From Actinomycetes bacterium (lineage in GTDB: Bacteria; Actinomycetota; Actinomycetes; Nanopelagicales; Nanopelagicaceae): 64,000 nt of DNA. The position numbers were made by a program, and so were the translations under genes. Where the stretch lies: assembly GCA_947383695.1 (NCBI GenBank), contig OX376642.1, forward strand, positions 434,001 through 498,000. The letters run 5' to 3'. The notes under the pieces were generated by a model. The model saw only the letters and a list, made by a program, of their open reading frames with translations, was not told where the DNA came from and ran no database searches. Below, in pieces: positions 1,094-15,566 of this stretch (position 1 is its first letter; each line of letters starts with the position of its first letter).

Positions 1094-3256
<2,163 letters not shown>

Positions 3257-3298: not shown

Positions 3299-5866
3299 TT
3301 AGATCTTAAGTAGCTTCTTTCCCTTTACTACAGCATCGTTTCGATCGGTGGCGTTTAATTTCCGATAGATACTCTTTAAGTGTGTCTTCATCGTATTTTT
3401 CGAGATACACAGATCGGTTGCTATTTGCCCAATTGGCAGCCCTGTACCCAAATGTCTCAAAATGTCAGCTTCGCGTCTAGTAAGTGAACGTGTTGGATCA
3501 TCGCTTCCGACCATCATTTCATTCAATCTTTCTCCCGCGGCTTTAGCTAATCTCTCATTAAACGGGGTTGGAGACTCTGCAACGAGCGAAATGTATTGTT
3601 GAATGACATCTGACCGCTGAGTAAGAAAATGCTTGAAGTACCCATGCTTAGATCCAATTTCCACCGCTTGCCGCACTTCATTGAATTGGCCACGAGGGGA
3701 ATCAGAGAAAATGTGTGCTCTGTACAAGTGATAGGTAAGTTTTTGTCGGGGAATCTGTAAATCAAAAGTTTCAGTTATTTCTAGAGCCTTGGAGTTGTTT
3801 CCCTTACTCATATAAATTCCAGCCTTGAAGGCGCGCATTAGATATGAGTTCGGAGATCGAGATAAGAGGTCATCCGCGCGCTTGTAATCCATAACCCAGT
3901 ACCTAACTCGCGCCTCCCAGATATCTACCGCTTGATGAAGCTCTTCCGAAAGGTCGTTGTCAGTAATCATTTCTCTACTTTGATTAATGCAGGACAAGGC
4001 TTCCTCTGTGTTTCCAAGAAGAACTTGCTGATACGACATGCGTCCGAGCAGAGTTGCAACCATTGGAAAGTTCTTCGCCCCAATGGCTTGATCAAGCGCA
4101 GCCTGCAAAAGAGCTAAACCCTTTTGGTGATCACCACTTTCTGAAACGATCATGAACTCTGCCAAGTACCCACCAAAGGATGCGAAGAAGCCTTTGTGTT
4201 TCTGCCCATCAGATTCAAGTGGCACCGCGAGTTCATTCTTCGCCTCAATAAACCGACCTTCATGTGCCGCAATTAAGGCGTGCATAGAATGAATAATCGT
4301 TGTGTGATGAAGAGTAGCGCTTGTAAAACTCTTTGACTTTAGAGCTTGTGAGATTCTCTTAATTTTTGAATCATCATCTTGGATCACCGCACACCATAAT
4401 GCCAATTGCAAAAATGTGACCGTGTTGCCTCTAGATACAAAGATCTCTTCAGCCGGAGTTTCGACGCACTCCATGGCTTTTTCAAAACATTGATTGAGAT
4501 CTCCCTTTGCATAAGAGAGAATCGATTCATATGCGAGCAACTCTCGTTTCAAGCCTTTAATTTCAAAACCAGATTGACCTGAAGTAAGCACGTGCAGTGC
4601 TTGCAGATTAGATTGAGCATCGAGAAAATTGCCACACAAGATACTTATGTAGAAGGATATGATTCTCTTCGCCAGCTCTTCAATTTTCGGCACATACTCA
4701 AAAACATCTAGCCAATTCTTGAGGTGATCGATTCTGGATGAGTAAATAGCTTCTTGAATGCTCAAATCTATGTGTCGAGCCACAGTAGGCTCCTGAACAA
4801 TTTTCATCAATTTATCCATCGAACCTAGCTGCAACAAAATTTTTGTGACCTCACGGATTCTTCCGCTATCCAGTAAACAGGAAATGAGGTTCTCGCTTTT
4901 AGCTTGGAACTCATCTAAACGCTGATATTCACTAACAAGCACCTTACGGAGCAAAGGATGAATCGCGAATTCAGGTGGGCTGTCATTAGTCTGTGCGACC
5001 ACCATTGAATCTTGACTCAATAAGGTCAGTATCCGAACGACATCAATGTTGCCCGTAAGGGTCAATGCTGTTTTCGCATCAATACTCTCAAGCAAGGAAA
5101 GTTCAGTAACAATTTCTAACTCCTCTTGAGCCAAACTCGCCAAAATTCTTTGGGCGGGAACTGTGAATTGATCCTGGCCCTTGTTCTGAATTGAAGAGAT
5201 TAGAGATTTAAAATCCTTGGTTACCGCCAGCTGGGAGAGTGCGATATGAACGCCTAGGGGCCATCCTTGAGATAATTCTTGAATTTCAATCAAATTACTA
5301 GTGCTAAGTTCGACGCCAGATTGAACTGCTAATTGCTCAGCCTCATCCGATGTGAAGTTCAAATCTGTAGGTGTGATAATTGTGAATCGTCCTGCGCCAT
5401 GTTCTTGTAAGAAGCTAGTTCGCGGGGATGTCTCGGTAAGTAAAATCAATTTTATGTGTGAAGGGAGCTTGCCGACTAAGAAACGTGCAAATCCATTGTG
5501 ATCTCTCCGAATTACTTCGGCATTGTCAATGACGATGTGAAACTTACTTTTGTCCTTCTCGATGACCTTTAGGAATTGGGAAAGAACACCATCATCAACT
5601 TCCTTAAGGTTTTCAAACTGAGCCAAACTTTTATTCAGCGAGGGGATACTTTTTCTAATTTCAGAAACGATCGAACCAAATAGTTCTGCTACTTGAGATG
5701 TCGCGAAGCCATCAAACCAAATGATCGGATCTGACTGAGTGTCTGCCCACTGCCTTGCCAGTACTGATTTCCCAAACCCAGTTGGTCCGTAGATATAAAC
5801 AACGTTGTCAGTTGAACTATTGATCGTATTGATTAAGCGCCGGCGCAGTAGAAGCTGGGATCCCAT
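3299..5866 (-). CDS. MalT/LAL-type STAND ATPase transcriptional regulator (LuxR HTH)
   Basis: Large signal-integrating transcription factor, about 855-870 aa. It has an N-terminal STAND/AAA-type NTPase (Walker A GPTGFGKS near residues 42-49 and Walker B FHIVIDNAEVI near 124-134, counting from the GTG at 5911), a long helical TPR-like middle, and a C-terminal LuxR-type helix-turn-helix (LTRREADILRHLGTG ... ISKNTMKTHLKSIYRKL). Such proteins are typically inducer- and ATP-dependent activators. An ATG at 5866 is preferred: CAAAAT ends 6 nt before it, and three GGGTGAA-like boxes then lie wholly upstream, the nearest about 40 bp away. The GTG at 5911 would overlap a box. It is divergent from the giant surface gene, which it probably controls together with itself. 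The ligand is unknown. Confidence 0.88.
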   Translation of the reverse strand: MGSQLLLRRRLINTINSSTDNVVYIYGPTGFGKSVLARQWADTQSDPIIWFDGFATSQVAELFGSIVSEIRKSIPSLNKSLAQFENLKEVDDGVLSQFLKVIEKDKSKFHIVIDNAEVIRRDHNGFARFLVGKLPSHIKLILLTETSPRTSFLQEHGAGRFTIITPTDLNFTSDEAEQLAVQSGVELSTSNLIEIQELSQGWPLGVHIALSQLAVTKDFKSLISSIQNKGQDQFTVPAQRILASLAQEELEIVTELSLLESIDAKTALTLTGNIDVVRILTLLSQDSMVVAQTNDSPPEFAIHPLLRKVLVSEYQRLDEFQAKSENLISCLLDSGRIREVTKILLQLGSMDKLMKIVQEPTVARHIDLSIQEAIYSSRIDHLKNWLDVFEYVPKIEELAKRIISFYISILCGNFLDAQSNLQALHVLTSGQSGFEIKGLKRELLAYESILSYAKGDLNQCFEKAMECVETPAEEIFVSRGNTVTFLQLALWCAVIQDDDSKIKRISQALKSKSFTSATLHHTTIIHSMHALIAAHEGRFIEAKNELAVPLESDGQKHKGFFASFGGYLAEFMIVSESGDHQKGLALLQAALDQAIGAKNFPMVATLLGRMSYQQVLLGNTEEALSCINQSREMITDNDLSEELHQAVDIWEARVRYWVMDYKRADDLLSRSPNSYLMRAFKAGIYMSKGNNSKALEITETFDLQIPRQKLTYHLYRAHIFSDSPRGQFNEVRQAVEIGSKHGYFKHFLTQRSDVIQQYISLVAESPTPFNERLAKAAGERLNEMMVGSDDPTRSLTRREADILRHLGTGLPIGQIATDLCISKNTMKTHLKSIYRKLNATDRNDAVVKGKKLLKI

Positions 5867-5906
5867 GGGGTTATTTTGGAATGTGACTTCACATTTTGGA
5901 AGATTT

Positions 5907-6056
5907 CTCACCCCAATTCCGCCGTTTCACCCGCCTTTTCACCCTCTAACCCCCGATTTCCACGCTGCCAATCGCCGTTGGCTTAACCGGTTGGGTGAAT
6001 TCTGGGGGGATTTGAGGGTGAATAGGTGCATCCACCCCTATTTCTTGAGGTGAGAA
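5907..6056. promoter_or_regulatory. symmetric six-box divergent operator region
   Basis: Three TTCACCC-type boxes point left (CTCACCC 5907-5913, TTCACCC 5926-5932, TTCACCC 5938-5944) and three GGGTGAA-type boxes point right (GGGTGAA 5993-5999, GGGTGAA 6016-6022, AGGTGAG 6048-6054). The innermost left box and the middle right box extend into a long imperfect inverted repeat (5938-5954 against 6004-6022). Between the groups lie CCAA-TCGCCG-TTGG (5968-5981) and the palindrome AACCGGTT (5985-5992). The arrangement suggests cooperative binding by the adjacent LuxR-type regulator in both directions. Confidence 0.6.
6021..6042. repeat. inverted repeat upstream of the giant surface gene
   Basis: AATAGG (6021-6026) and CCTATT (6037-6042) are perfect inverted arms around a 10-nt centre, lying about 30-50 bp before the predicted transcription start. 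A possible second operator type within the box array. Confidence 0.4.
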
Positions 6057-6059
6057 AAG

Positions 6060-6065
6060 TATTTT
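6060..6065 (+). promoter_or_regulatory. -10-like element of the giant surface gene (leaderless type)
   Basis: TATTTT followed by 6 nt and the ATG at 6072. No -35 resembling TTGACA is present at the right distance, which fits activator-dependent transcription. The GAGG at 6047-6050 is too far from the ATG (21 nt) to serve as a ribosome site. Confidence 0.4.
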
Positions 6066-6071
6066 TCCCGC

Positions 6072-12000: not shown

Positions 12001-12116
12001 TCATCTCTGCTAAGCCAGGTGTTTCAACAGGCAAGAATTCAACTCGAGCGACAATCTCTGGATTAAAGCCTGGCCAAAAGGTTAAGGTAACTGTGAATGT
12101 GAAGCCAAAGCCATGA
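6072..12116 (+). CDS. giant secreted multidomain surface protein (Ig-like / FnIII / Ala-rich stalk)
   Basis: 2014 aa, no recognised enzymatic domain. Residues 1-44 form a signal peptide (basic start, hydrophobic core about 18-35, end at SALA). A module of about 175 aa (47-223, from TLTIVKD to DNFGI) recurs diverged at about 1127-1293 (from TLTVHKD to DNFGF). Between them are bacterial Ig-like repeats with Asp-rich linkers (SDSGSSSSDD) and two copies of a unit containing TSTYxLTxED plus an FnIII domain opening with PGAPTSV (about 830-925 and 1032-1125). Two putative-Ig domains (SPSLPSGLSLNxSTGxITGT, about 1313-1470) and a third FnIII (about 1476-1570) follow. Then come a polyglycine hinge, a Pro/Glu strip, about 370 residues rich in Ala/Lys/Val/Glu (likely helical stalk) and TISGLKPGQKVKVTVN. 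No LPXTG sorting signal. Likely an adhesin or surface-layer fibre; function is inference. Confidence 0.8.
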   Translation: MVSIMNLNWRNRLFRSRILVPLLIAISAFFLIVLESNFRTASALAPTLTIVKDQSNTNADTSIPLPATGWTHIARPCLDGAQQYSYVNNQTAPDNSTCDSNEPGRYGNIDGDHVRTGYNYNSFKITFVNPVSEFIFDSGGVVADNQAYIHVFFENKTPTNFYSDTSAYVSFPLTLNYSGGSGWSTRYKVSFSDGTQITKIGFSYNSSGTSFSNYPSMFDNFGIPNAPTVSTFSSSTTTPRNDSNASYSLVFSQSVTGLTTDDFENAGTATGCSYTVTGSGTTYTLSISSCSDGTIQPRIKTNSVTGSTFDGPASAATTTSTITKDSFAPTASVTTATILASGNASVQSSEAGTAYLVNETVTVTSLASITGAADNLQNSVSITTANTNTNLAATGLVPGTYKLYTTDGAGNLSAASTNSISIKPATPGTPDLDSASDLGTNNDNNTSDDTPTFTLSSLISGASVTVAATPSSGNAVTCSFTSTGNSGSCTFTSLSNGTYSITAVQSFGGINSDTSTALANVVINKATISRPARPDLATSSDSGSSSSDDLTNDNTPTINVTGTFTGTATVTAAKMGSTSVTCSVSSSTCTLSTLSDGVWNITVTDGDAAGNSATSETLSITVDTTAPSTPTITAQTVSDRESISIQVADTGTAYLYRWLSTNTPSTPADVTTKASEFWNSVAVVANTSTSISTLDLGTGYNYKLYVVDEAGNISSGSTNLVKVDPASSPTISGPTRPSSSSPADKVGSTLTNVMSVSGLPVPTISYQYVRCPSVSGNWVPTCVDIPGATTSTYILTAEDAGQHIGVEITATNSQGSTVQIGVATAKVEASVPGAPTSVATTITGSTTASIAFTVPASNGASITDYDLEYSSNNGSTWTSFNNGTSTTNPILVTGLTANTSYIFRVKAKNSAGDGSFSIATSPQTTLQAPSVATNEAPQNLASPGVFKVGDTITNQMTFDGFPNPTLSYQFLRCPTVTYSSNDCAEIPSATSSTYTLTGEDVGKYMGVKITATNSSGSLVQTPMRNTLVTAARPGAPTSVAVSITGSTTATVSFTAPVSNGGSAITGYTVTSTPSGAVCAAGASSTTYNCTGLAAGTSYTFKVKATNTVGSGIDSSPSSSAVTLVAPTLTVHKDESNNATDTPISLQSGTLTDPCASNSYYTITFSSGSCNREPTNYSSGNVNADNMFVDTNRSVFLNLLQPINSFTFDACCVDRSVYVLVQYEDSNPSSFYVGNSGFVSYLLTANASSVPSTRYQISFADGRLIKKIGLGFNSDGSSSSGDITIYDNFGFSVAPLATSVSVSSKSLTAGTAATSFTPINASGGGSSKTYSISPSLPSGLSLNASTGAITGTPTGASASTSYTVSVTDGSSTSTATFSLGVNAALSSTTGTVPSGVYKDVAVTAFTPVSFSGGTSPVTYSVSPSLPAGLSLNTSTGVISGTATGTAASTTYTVTATDANGASEASTFAFAVTNQPTAPGAPTIGAATSTGQTTATVAFTAPANTGGAAITTYTVTASPGSITATGSSSPITVSGLTAGTAYTFSITATNAAGLTSSSSSPSSSITTESAPVQNNNNGGGGGGGGGAPAPAPEPAPEPVCNATCVAAQNAAAKAAADKAAAEKVAAEKLIADKAAAVAVAEKAKVDVSAAVASATAAAEKVSAATVAKVAVDTIAAAVSTVVNSANAAQTSTSKITSEAAASIKSAPAAATKAASTASANSKANTAATQVKAAANAAQKAAASSQAQTSNTPEIAFGSSNTASAASQAAAKADAAARAGKSAANEVAAAAEVKSIESRVTATALQNEANAAVAEAIAEQKVAAALATEAKVAADKASAATTEKIAATAAAKTAAETLVTLLTEKVAIAEKVATAASEEVRAEAQKTLDTVNIKIAEAERAVTETVSKADAAIAAQAEAIKVAEATKATAEAQVRKVDQLLASVPIKATAAVRAASAAAVAAKVAAAAKVAAATIPSRAVISAKPGVSTGKNSTRATISGLKPGQKVKVTVNVKPKP

Positions 12117-13783
12117 TGCGTAAATTACTTTTGCTGACGTTAATCTTTCTGAACTTTTCGGTTTTGCCAGCTGATTCCGCCGAGAAAAAGGTTGTCATCG
12201 ACAGGCTTACTCAGTCAGAGGCTGAGGATCTTGATATCGAAATCCCTGATGAAGTCCCTCCAGGTTTTCACTCCATCACCATTGAGGTCTATGACGACAA
12301 TGGAACGGTAAGCCAGAAAGAGATTGAGTTTTGTAAGGATGAAGAGGGTGTTGTTCAGTGGGATAACAACTGCCCTAATTTGAATTTGGATGAAGAACCC
12401 GCACCTGCTGATCCAGAACCGGTAAAGGCGATTAAGACAGGGTTACAGCCTTACGATCCACTGGGCGATCCAGAGACGACAAAGGGGCTGCATTTGGCTG
12501 CTTTTGCTGCCCTTGCTGCGTTGACATCGGTCAAGCGCAATGAGAAGCAAAGTGATGAAGAGGCAGAGCAGGAGTCCTTGCAATCTGTCTCATCAGGAGC
12601 GTTGAAGTTACTGAAGAATGAACCAGGCAAGGGCGATCTGTCACAAACCTGGGACAACAAATTTACAGATGAGACAGATTTCGCTTTTGTATCTTTAGCA
12701 CATCGCTTTAACCGTTTCTCGCCATTGCTTACCCGCACGATTCAAGACGGCAACACAGTGCGAGCAATCATTGGCTCCTTTGCAGCGCTATTGATCCCTA
12801 TTGGTTTGATTCTTGGAATCATTGCAGCGATCAATACAGGCGCTCAGGCGTTGCCACCTGTTTGGGCAATCGTCGGTGCCATTATGGCGGTTGCAATCTT
12901 TGATGCATTTGCGGGCTTTATCGCAGGCTTTGTTTTCTTCTTAGCAGCATTGCTAACTGGAAACATCACTAACCGTCCTGAGCTGCTTACATCAATTGGT
13001 GTAATGGTTCTGTTCTTTGCACCAGCTTTGCTTGCAAGTGCATTCCGTCCATTCCGTCGTTTGGTTCGAAATCAAGATGATATGTGGGAGCGCATTACAG
13101 ATTATGCGCTTGGAACATTGTTAACTTTCTGGGTAATTACAAAGATGGTTGCTGCCATGAACGGTTTGGCTCGTCTTGAGCTGCCAATTACAGAGTATGG
13201 AACTGAGCTCGCTTTTATTGCTGCCGGTTTGTTGTTGATCCGCGTTGCTTTGGAAGATATTGCGGTTGAGCACTATCCAATGCGTCTTCGTGCGCTACAT
13301 GTTGAGATCAAGAAGCCATCACAGAATCAGAAGATTCGCTCACTTGCCTTCAAAATCTTTGTCTTCTTCATTATGGCCGCGCCATTTGTCGGTTCAACAC
13401 TGAACTTGGTTCTAGGAACCTTGTTGTTTGCGATTCCTCAGATCACATCACTTAGCCTTGAAGACAACCTGCCTAAGAAGAAGTTGTATCTACCAAAGGG
13501 TGTTTTCAAGACGGTTGTGATGATCTTTGTAATGGCACTTACCTCAAATCTAATCGAAGGTGCTTTTTCATCACCTGAAGCCTTCTTAAAGTGGAGCTTT
13601 GTGGTGATGGCCTTGCCTGGCTTCTTCCTGCACTACTTAGATGCAATCACAGATGCACCAGAGTCGGATTGGAAAACCACAGACAAGGGTCGAAAGATCT
13701 ATCGCATCGGTGGAGTCATCGTGTTTATCTTGATGGTGCTGGTTGTGAAGGGCGTAGATATCGCTTCATGGCTTGTTGGGTAA
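12113..13783 (+). CDS. polytopic membrane protein coupled to the giant surface protein
   Basis: 556 aa, family not recognised. A short signal sequence (residues 1-22, ending DSA) precedes an extracytoplasmic domain with a Cys pair (C74, C87) and an Asp/Glu/Pro-rich linker. Hydrophobic segments follow near 125-140, 217-241, 248-284 (probably two), 292-311, 331-350, 365-380, 411-440, 464-482, 492-508 and 532-550, so about ten transmembrane helices. Its ATG overlaps the TGA of the giant gene (ATGATG), implying translational coupling and a shared job, for example export, anchoring or signalling for the surface protein. A second ATG three bases later is an equal start candidate. The gene ends 15 bp before the att-like repeat, so it is the last gene of the island. 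Confidence 0.78.
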   Translation: MMRKLLLLTLIFLNFSVLPADSAEKKVVIDRLTQSEAEDLDIEIPDEVPPGFHSITIEVYDDNGTVSQKEIEFCKDEEGVVQWDNNCPNLNLDEEPAPADPEPVKAIKTGLQPYDPLGDPETTKGLHLAAFAALAALTSVKRNEKQSDEEAEQESLQSVSSGALKLLKNEPGKGDLSQTWDNKFTDETDFAFVSLAHRFNRFSPLLTRTIQDGNTVRAIIGSFAALLIPIGLILGIIAAINTGAQALPPVWAIVGAIMAVAIFDAFAGFIAGFVFFLAALLTGNITNRPELLTSIGVMVLFFAPALLASAFRPFRRLVRNQDDMWERITDYALGTLLTFWVITKMVAAMNGLARLELPITEYGTELAFIAAGLLLIRVALEDIAVEHYPMRLRALHVEIKKPSQNQKIRSLAFKIFVFFIMAAPFVGSTLNLVLGTLLFAIPQITSLSLEDNLPKKKLYLPKGVFKTVVMIFVMALTSNLIEGAFSSPEAFLKWSFVVMALPGFFLHYLDAITDAPESDWKTTDKGRKIYRIGGVIVFILMVLVVKGVDIASWLVG

Positions 13784-14618: not shown

Positions 14619-15566
14619 ATGCAGGAAAACGTGGTTGCGCTCTTTAAACAGGTACGGCTCTTTTCATCGGTGGCTGCAGCGATCGGAATCCTGCTTTCCT
14701 TAATTTTCTCTGGGTTACTTCAAACAAGCTCTATGGGGTGGCAGGTTGTTGTCGCAGTTGTTGCTTTAGCAATAGGTATTCCTCATGGAGCTTTGGATCA
14801 CTTAGTAACTCTTCCAAAGTCGCAGCCATCAAAGATGGCGATCTTTATTGTTATTTATGTTGCCGTCGCGGTTGTAGCCGTTGTTGGAATTCTGAAGTTC
14901 AACACTGTTGGATTTATTCTCGTCTTGTTTATGAGTGCAATCCACTTTGGAATTGGTGATGCCGCCTTTATTAGCGAGATAGATAAGCGCACCAATCCTG
15001 AGAGAAAACTCAATCGCTGGTGCTATATTCCTGCAGCCGGATTTACTCCGGTGTTTATACCTTTAGTGAACTCTGCAAGCACCGAAGCGCTGGCATCTGT
15101 GAATCCTGCGTTGATTAATTGGCACCAGGGATTTGATTCTGAAATCTTGATACTTGTCTCTGCCTTTGCCGTACTTTCCATTGCTGTGATGTTTGTGGGA
15201 AAGAGAAAACGAGAAGGTGTGGATCTAACTTTGCTTTTGCTCTTGGCCCATCTCGCACCTCCATTAATTGCATTTGCTGTCTACTTTGGATGCTGGCATG
15301 CAATGCGGCACACAGCTCGCTTGACCCTTTCTCTGCCGAAATGTATTGAGAGTTTGAATCTAGGCTTGAATAGAAAAGCCTTTTTTTGCGCCGTTATTCC
15401 AGGATTACCTGCTCTGGTTGGAACCTTTGTAGTTGCTGCGGTTTTAGCGTTAAGTGGCCAGAGTTTTTCCGATGAGTTTTTCTGGATGGCGTTAGTAGTT
15501 GTGTGGGCGCTCACTGTGCCTCACATGGTAGTTACCGCTAAATTGGATCGTGCAGCACTAGCCTAA
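14619..15566 (+). CDS. blh: Brp/Blh-type beta-carotene 15,15'-dioxygenase (retinal-forming)
   Basis: Membrane enzyme that cleaves beta-carotene into two molecules of retinal, the chromophore of microbial rhodopsins. 315 aa with about eight hydrophobic helices. Conserved iron-binding histidines are visible: H56 and H61 in IPHGALDH, H108 in IHFGIGDA, H226 and H230 in CWHAMRHT, plus VPHMVV near the C-terminus. An AAGGGGGC ribosome site precedes the ATG. It is divergent from crtYc/crtYd, so the last step to beta-carotene and its cleavage to retinal sit in one 1.7-kb cassette. No rhodopsin gene is in the window; dependence on an actinorhodopsin elsewhere is inference. Confidence 0.88.
   Translation: MQENVVALFKQVRLFSSVAAAIGILLSLIFSGLLQTSSMGWQVVVAVVALAIGIPHGALDHLVTLPKSQPSKMAIFIVIYVAVAVVAVVGILKFNTVGFILVLFMSAIHFGIGDAAFISEIDKRTNPERKLNRWCYIPAAGFTPVFIPLVNSASTEALASVNPALINWHQGFDSEILILVSAFAVLSIAVMFVGKRKREGVDLTLLLLLAHLAPPLIAFAVYFGCWHAMRHTARLTLSLPKCIESLNLGLNRKAFFCAVIPGLPALVGTFVVAAVLALSGQSFSDEFFWMALVVVWALTVPHMVVTAKLDRAALA

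Follow-up and report, generated by a model that had tools for sequence, protein, structure and literature searches.

The intergenic region at positions 5867 to 6071 of the window, by which we mean the whole 64,000-nucleotide stretch of DNA that was analysed (GC content, 46.8%; genome size, 1.43 Mb), separates two divergent genes, a leftward one encoding a MalT-like LuxR regulator and a rightward one encoding an exported protein of 2,014 aa. Judging from genome size, GC content, and the genes present, the DNA probably comes from a streamlined freshwater actinobacterium of the Planktophila/Nanopelagicaceae type. The features of the locus are listed in Table 1. A catalase-peroxidase gene (cat_per_HPI, 1103-3256) adjoins the regulator gene, and a gene for a Brp/Blh-type carotene dioxygenase (14619-15566) lies downstream of the giant operon.

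Table 1. Features of the divergent locus (window coordinates)
Feature	Position	Strand	Remarks
MalT-like LuxR regulator, 855 aa from ATG 5866	3299..5866	-	ORF open to GTG 5911 (870 aa)
Candidate -10 (CAAAAT)	5873..5878	-	6 nt before ATG 5866; possibly leaderless; without a good -35; predicted by reading
Box R1 (TCACCC; GGGTGA toward regulator)	5908..5913	-	exact
Box R2 (TCACCC)	5927..5932	-	exact
Box R3 (TCACCC)	5939..5944	-	exact; 12-bp-spaced direct pair with R2, a pair that also precedes the 43% homologue of G191
Box S1 (GGGTGA toward giant gene)	5993..5998	+	exact
Box S2 (GGGTGA)	6016..6021	+	exact
Box S3 (AGGTGAG)	6048..6054	+	degenerate; 5 nt upstream of giant-gene -10, at -24 to -18
Imperfect inverted repeat, outer	5904-5916 / 6045-6057		92%
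Imperfect inverted repeat, inner	5934..5954 (left arm) / 6006..6026 (right arm)		86%
Candidate -10 (TATTTT)	6060..6065	+	6 nt before ATG 6072; possibly leaderless; predicted by reading
Giant exported protein, 2014 aa	6072..12116	+	Pfam fn3, Big_13, He_PIG
Exported polytopic partner, 556 aa	12113..13783	+	4-nt overlap with giant gene

Within these 205 bp, three exact GGGTGA/TCACCC hexamers point leftward and two rightward, and a sixth copy, AGGTGAG, is degenerate. An earlier note on this DNA had described six boxes, and the array proved to be real: five exact boxes were reached by none of 20,000 dinucleotide shuffles (shuffle mean, 0.19), and five copies of any hexamer at all were reached in 9 of 5,000 shuffles of the region. 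A lone GGGTGAA is found at about background frequency genome-wide (177 occurrences versus 153 for the reversed control), and the window is the sole place in the genome that has a direct pair of the heptamer in the same orientation (GGGTGAA-N5-25-GGGTGAA). The long imperfect inverted repeat that had been reported was recovered as the inner pair of arms, and it shares a common centre near 5980 with an outer pair. Of 1,000 shuffles, 2 produced an arm pair of such strength, and 1 produced two strong pairs with a common centre. The symmetry ascribed to the region holds for these two arm pairs, and we limit the term to them because the dyad symmetry of the entire region is not above chance (285 of 400 shuffles were as good).

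A scan of the window region found no sigma-70 -35/-10 pair. If the regulator starts at ATG 5866, its boxes lie 42 to 78 bp upstream (about 41 to 78 bp had been proposed), and this start is supported by our own reading of an alignment in which a GTG stands at the same codon in the 43% homologue of G191.

The regulator ends in a LuxR/GerE HTH domain (Pfam PF00196, 52.5 bits against a cut-off of 23.5, 3.6e-14), while its N-terminal part is a STAND-type ATPase with a Walker A motif, GPTGFGKS, a match to ATPase_2 (PF01637, 4e-8) that is barely above the cut-off (33.8 versus 33.2 bits), and a match to PF13191 that is below the cut-off of that model. It thus has both the GerE HTH and the Walker A ATPase, at about 850 to 900 aa, of LAL/MalT-like STAND LuxR regulators, as well as at least three GGGTGA/TCACCC boxes upstream of its gene (five in the window). 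Because the NCBIfam MalT model PRK04841 gives only 118 to 119 bits against an equivalog cut-off of 537, we call the protein MalT-like and not MalT; likewise, the core of its boxes is GGGTGA and not the GGATGA of a MalT box.

Matches to the regulator at E values of 0.001 or lower exist in 131 of 135 genomes of the genus, many of them to the HTH only, and its same-genus relatives share 22 to 26% identity over their length. Homologues of higher identity are found in G191, which belongs to another genus (43%), and in G293 (29%). In a FastTree phylogeny, the window regulator groups with these two (support, 1.0 and 0.84) rather than with its own genus, which suggests that it either arrived laterally or is an old paralogue. 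The G191 homologue adjoins a gene of 999 aa, not a giant surface gene, and has upstream a GGGTGA-N6-GGGTGA pair whose spacing and strand are identical to those of R2 and R3. Searches for closer homologues gave a single match, to the HTH only, in genome contigs (Rugamonas), none in viral contigs, and on plasmids only distant LuxR proteins (49 records), none of which covered 80% of the query. The HTH is conserved across the regulator family, with a near-invariant recognition helix, S-NT-(M/I)-KTHL, that resembles what we take to be the helix of MalT.

The earlier note had proposed a search for the boxes near similar regulators, and they are there. At least two boxes lie upstream of all 43 regulator homologues scored and at least three upstream of 41, where 55 regulators were parsed, 12 were left out because the Walker pattern did not fit, and only identical C-termini were removed as duplicates, so that near-duplicates remain. 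The 12 include the window's own regulator, L177, and short types of about 530 aa; six loci had no regulator frame. The two regulators that have two boxes only, L029 and L181, count against the explanation that we favour below. Upstream of the homologues, GGGTGA occurs 176 times, versus a mean of 5.5 per hexamer, and ranks first of 2,080 hexamers, while none of 19 ordinary LuxR response-regulator genes used as a control has GGGTGA boxes upstream. Most of the same-genus regulators examined are preceded by a tight palindrome, TCACCCC-N3/4-GGGGTGA, and the palindrome is present in 83 of 135 genomes of the genus. The window lacks it, its boxes being spread out, which is a further point against. Among 44 good genomes, a TCACCC-N3-6-GGGTGA palindrome exists in 26 of 28 with a regulator versus 4 of 16 without one (Fisher P = 6e-6). 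The association is circular in part, since it is mostly at the gene for the regulator that the palindromes are found. The regulator-box pattern extends to other genera, including the shorter regulators (about 525 to 555 aa) of g9.

In the giant protein, a hydrophobic signal-like segment at the N-terminus is accompanied by Ig-like and fn3 domains, an Ala-rich tail, and a C-terminal GLKPGQKVKVTVNVK motif. No homologue of its N-terminal domain was found beyond the window's own copy among the 135 genus genomes or the 296 family genomes. The divergent regulator/giant pair is therefore not conserved among these genomes, which counts against the explanation that we favour. Homologues of the partner (91, 81, 66, and 51% identity) occur at the ends of this genome's second giant gene and of giant genes in G104, G254, and G111, and every one of the partner genes (12113-13783 in the window, L256 5997-7667, L260 10074-11747, L263 11896-13554, and L259 11561-13246) has an overlap of about 4 nt with the end of its giant gene. 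In the window's genome, the two partner copies have 91% identity, although they accompany different giant proteins, and a C-terminus close to GLKPGQKVKVTVNVK is common to the window's giant and the four others. The partner has no match in Pfam and only a sub-threshold one in NCBIfam; judging from the gene overlap and the common C-terminal tail, our guess is that the partner may export or anchor the giant protein.

The boxes are also found at giant genes. In the window's genome, TCACCC-N3-8-GGGTGA occurs in two places, at a paralogous, second MalT-like regulator, whose promoter lies at C1:387443, and upstream of the second giant exported gene (3,452 aa; C1:1402104), whose homologues in G111, G060, G120, G026, G066, and G040 retain boxes. 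The locus is thus not the self-contained module that had been proposed, and crosstalk with the second regulator is likely. A search for direct pairs (GGGTGA-N5-8-GGGTGA) across the 135 genomes gave at least 70 distinct places among the loci examined, 36 of them without a further box. A direct pair within a group of four or more boxes is present in 24 arrays (L146, which appeared as two rows, was counted once). Regulators follow 10 of them and genes for large exported proteins 11, 1 is the window itself, and the remaining 2 (L133 and L140) lie at unrelated genes and count against our explanation. Hence 22 of the 24 belong to a regulator, an exported protein, or the window. In 24 genomes of other genera, arrays precede regulators (L220, L222, L228, L230, L233, L236, L241, and L243) and exported proteins (L221, L226, L227, and L232), and three-box arrays occur elsewhere at L224, L234, and L244. 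The array of G293 precedes another giant gene (3,738 aa) that overlaps a different gene of 922 aa. In G013, whose genome lacks such a regulator, the giant gene was seen in full; it has neither upstream boxes nor a partner of this kind, and its product has a different C-terminus. No arrays were found at the glycine-rich weaker homologues L081 to L083, L085 to L089, L091 to L095, L098, L102, and L104, many of which are loci that exclude the promoter, the match being inside the gene, so that among the weaker homologues we give weight only to the G013 gene.

We consider it probable that the locus is an autoregulated MalT-type (STAND/LAL) switch with its operators and that it belongs, along with other giant surface operons, to a larger regulon. 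In such a switch, 5908-6054 would be the shared operator region of the two divergent promoters, and the GGGTGA boxes would be the predicted binding sites of the regulator encoded at 3299-5866. The regulator would be monomeric in the off state; upon sensing a presumed inducer, it is predicted to open, to bind ATP, and to multimerise. The multimer would fill the tandem boxes cooperatively and recruit RNA polymerase to two weak promoters without a -35, and from their putative start sites one would drive the regulator's own gene (autoregulation) and the other would drive the giant operon, in which the genes for the surface protein and the membrane partner overlap. The same boxes at the promoters of related regulators and of several kinds of giant exported-protein operons would make up the wider regulon. 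Cooperative binding of a multimer to the arrays appears to be the likeliest reading in view of the known MalT operators, the multimerisation of MalT as a STAND protein, and the likeness of the recognition helices.

Box conservation at both kinds of genes supports the activator-operator reading of the earlier note, and activation at both promoters is what we would expect. We favour it because no -35 was found and because the characterised MalT proteins are activators (PMC7567727, PMC4381067). The alternative that the regulator binds the boxes and represses both promoters until its inducer is present seems unlikely to us, but it deserves attention because the boxes sit in or beside the core promoters. 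S3 lies between the -35 and -10 positions, where a site is more usual for repression, which counts against activation. According to our own reading of the spacing, an exact TCACCCC, in the orientation opposite to that of S3, also stands 5 nt before the -10 in the giant-gene promoters L076, L145, L156, and L167. Furthermore, of 54 regions upstream of homologues, 17 contain a promoter of the form TTGNNN-N17-CACCCT with a TCACCC box that overlaps its -10. However, in the same 17 regions the palindrome is located just upstream of the -35 (-60 to -43), a typical place for an activator. This promoter stands 5 to 6 nt before the start codon, which suggests leaderless transcripts.

Less probable still is the explanation that an unlinked factor binds GGGTGA and that the MalT-like regulators and giant genes are mere targets. 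Boxes are indeed present at many unlinked genes, and G101, a draft genome that is 82% complete, has box-bearing exported genes while no match to the regulator was detected, a point against our explanation as well. Nevertheless, the boxes track this regulator family, and not other LuxR genes, across genera and length subfamilies, and their motif is similar to the sites of MalT. That the array arose by chance, or is a structural or recombination element with no role in regulation, is hardly credible, since the imperfect inverted repeats that might suggest it are set against the shuffle statistics and the promoter conservation across genera. In addition, recurrent coding sequence is among the places that have two boxes and no more, which by our own reading is what chance predicts for those places.

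Among the characterised systems, the autoregulated switch proposed here is closest to MalT of Actinoplanes sp. SE50/110, an actinobacterial MalT-like LuxR regulator with many target promoters. Its operator is TCATCC-N5-GGATGA, inverted hexamers that overlap the -35 (PMC7567727). GGATGA and GGGTGA differ by one base per half; the spacer in the relatives studied here is mostly N3-4 between heptamers, whereas the boxes of the window are spread out; and the system here targets its own regulator gene and giant exported operons instead of a metabolic region. MalT of Escherichia coli is a STAND protein that multimerises upon inducer binding (PMC4381067) and has repeated G-rich boxes, GGGGA(T/G)GAGG (PMC7567727). 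It shares with the window regulator an ATPase followed by a C-terminal LuxR HTH, and the MalT model matches the N-terminal part of the regulator; however, the score is far below its cut-off, as given above, the box core differs, and no maltose genes are seen beside the regulator. The LAL regulators of Streptomyces, such as SCO0877, SCO7173, and SCO6993, are likewise large ATP-binding LuxR-family proteins of actinobacteria; they are known to control antibiotic and phosphate genes, and in the literature consulted on them no GGGTGA arrays at giant surface operons were met.

Our novelty check covered the literature on LuxR regulators and giant surface proteins of Planktophila and Nanopelagicales and on GGGTGA, in which the system was not found, and the literature on MalT boxes as direct repeats, which gave nothing. 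Within this scope, the findings suggest that the cell surface of these small bacteria is under a form of control that had not been described before. It is conceivable, although we would sooner doubt it than rely on it, that the switch is family-wide, with MalT-type STAND sensors that read environmental signals and act through GGGTGA arrays on giant exported proteins; these would have the GLKPGQKVKVTVNVK tag in common at their ends and be translated together with a dedicated membrane partner that exports or anchors them. The window would then hold sensor, operator, giant, and partner together. The arrays would represent a concrete and testable regulatory code for a family of small-genome bacteria with few transcription factors, would connect giant surface proteins with an orphan class of STAND sensors, and would allow prediction of which exported proteins are switched. 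It also becomes possible to ask whether a nutrient, a predator, or a phage provides the signal.

A few arrays lie at genes of other kinds. Array L133 (1407-1517) is located between genes that we read as rhodopsin-like and hemolysin-III-like, and a similar one exists at L158 (2914-2970); the genomes concerned, G073 and G109, both have a short-type regulator. An HTH gene that we read as RodZ-like is preceded by three boxes in the window's genome (L249, about 1490-1540) and by four in G041 (L140, 2860-2943). Three TCACCC boxes, two of them inside a tandemly repeated stretch, precede groEL of the window's genome (L245 1501-1538; G000:C1:127950), and the arrays of the exported giants of G045 and G080 likewise lie beside groEL.
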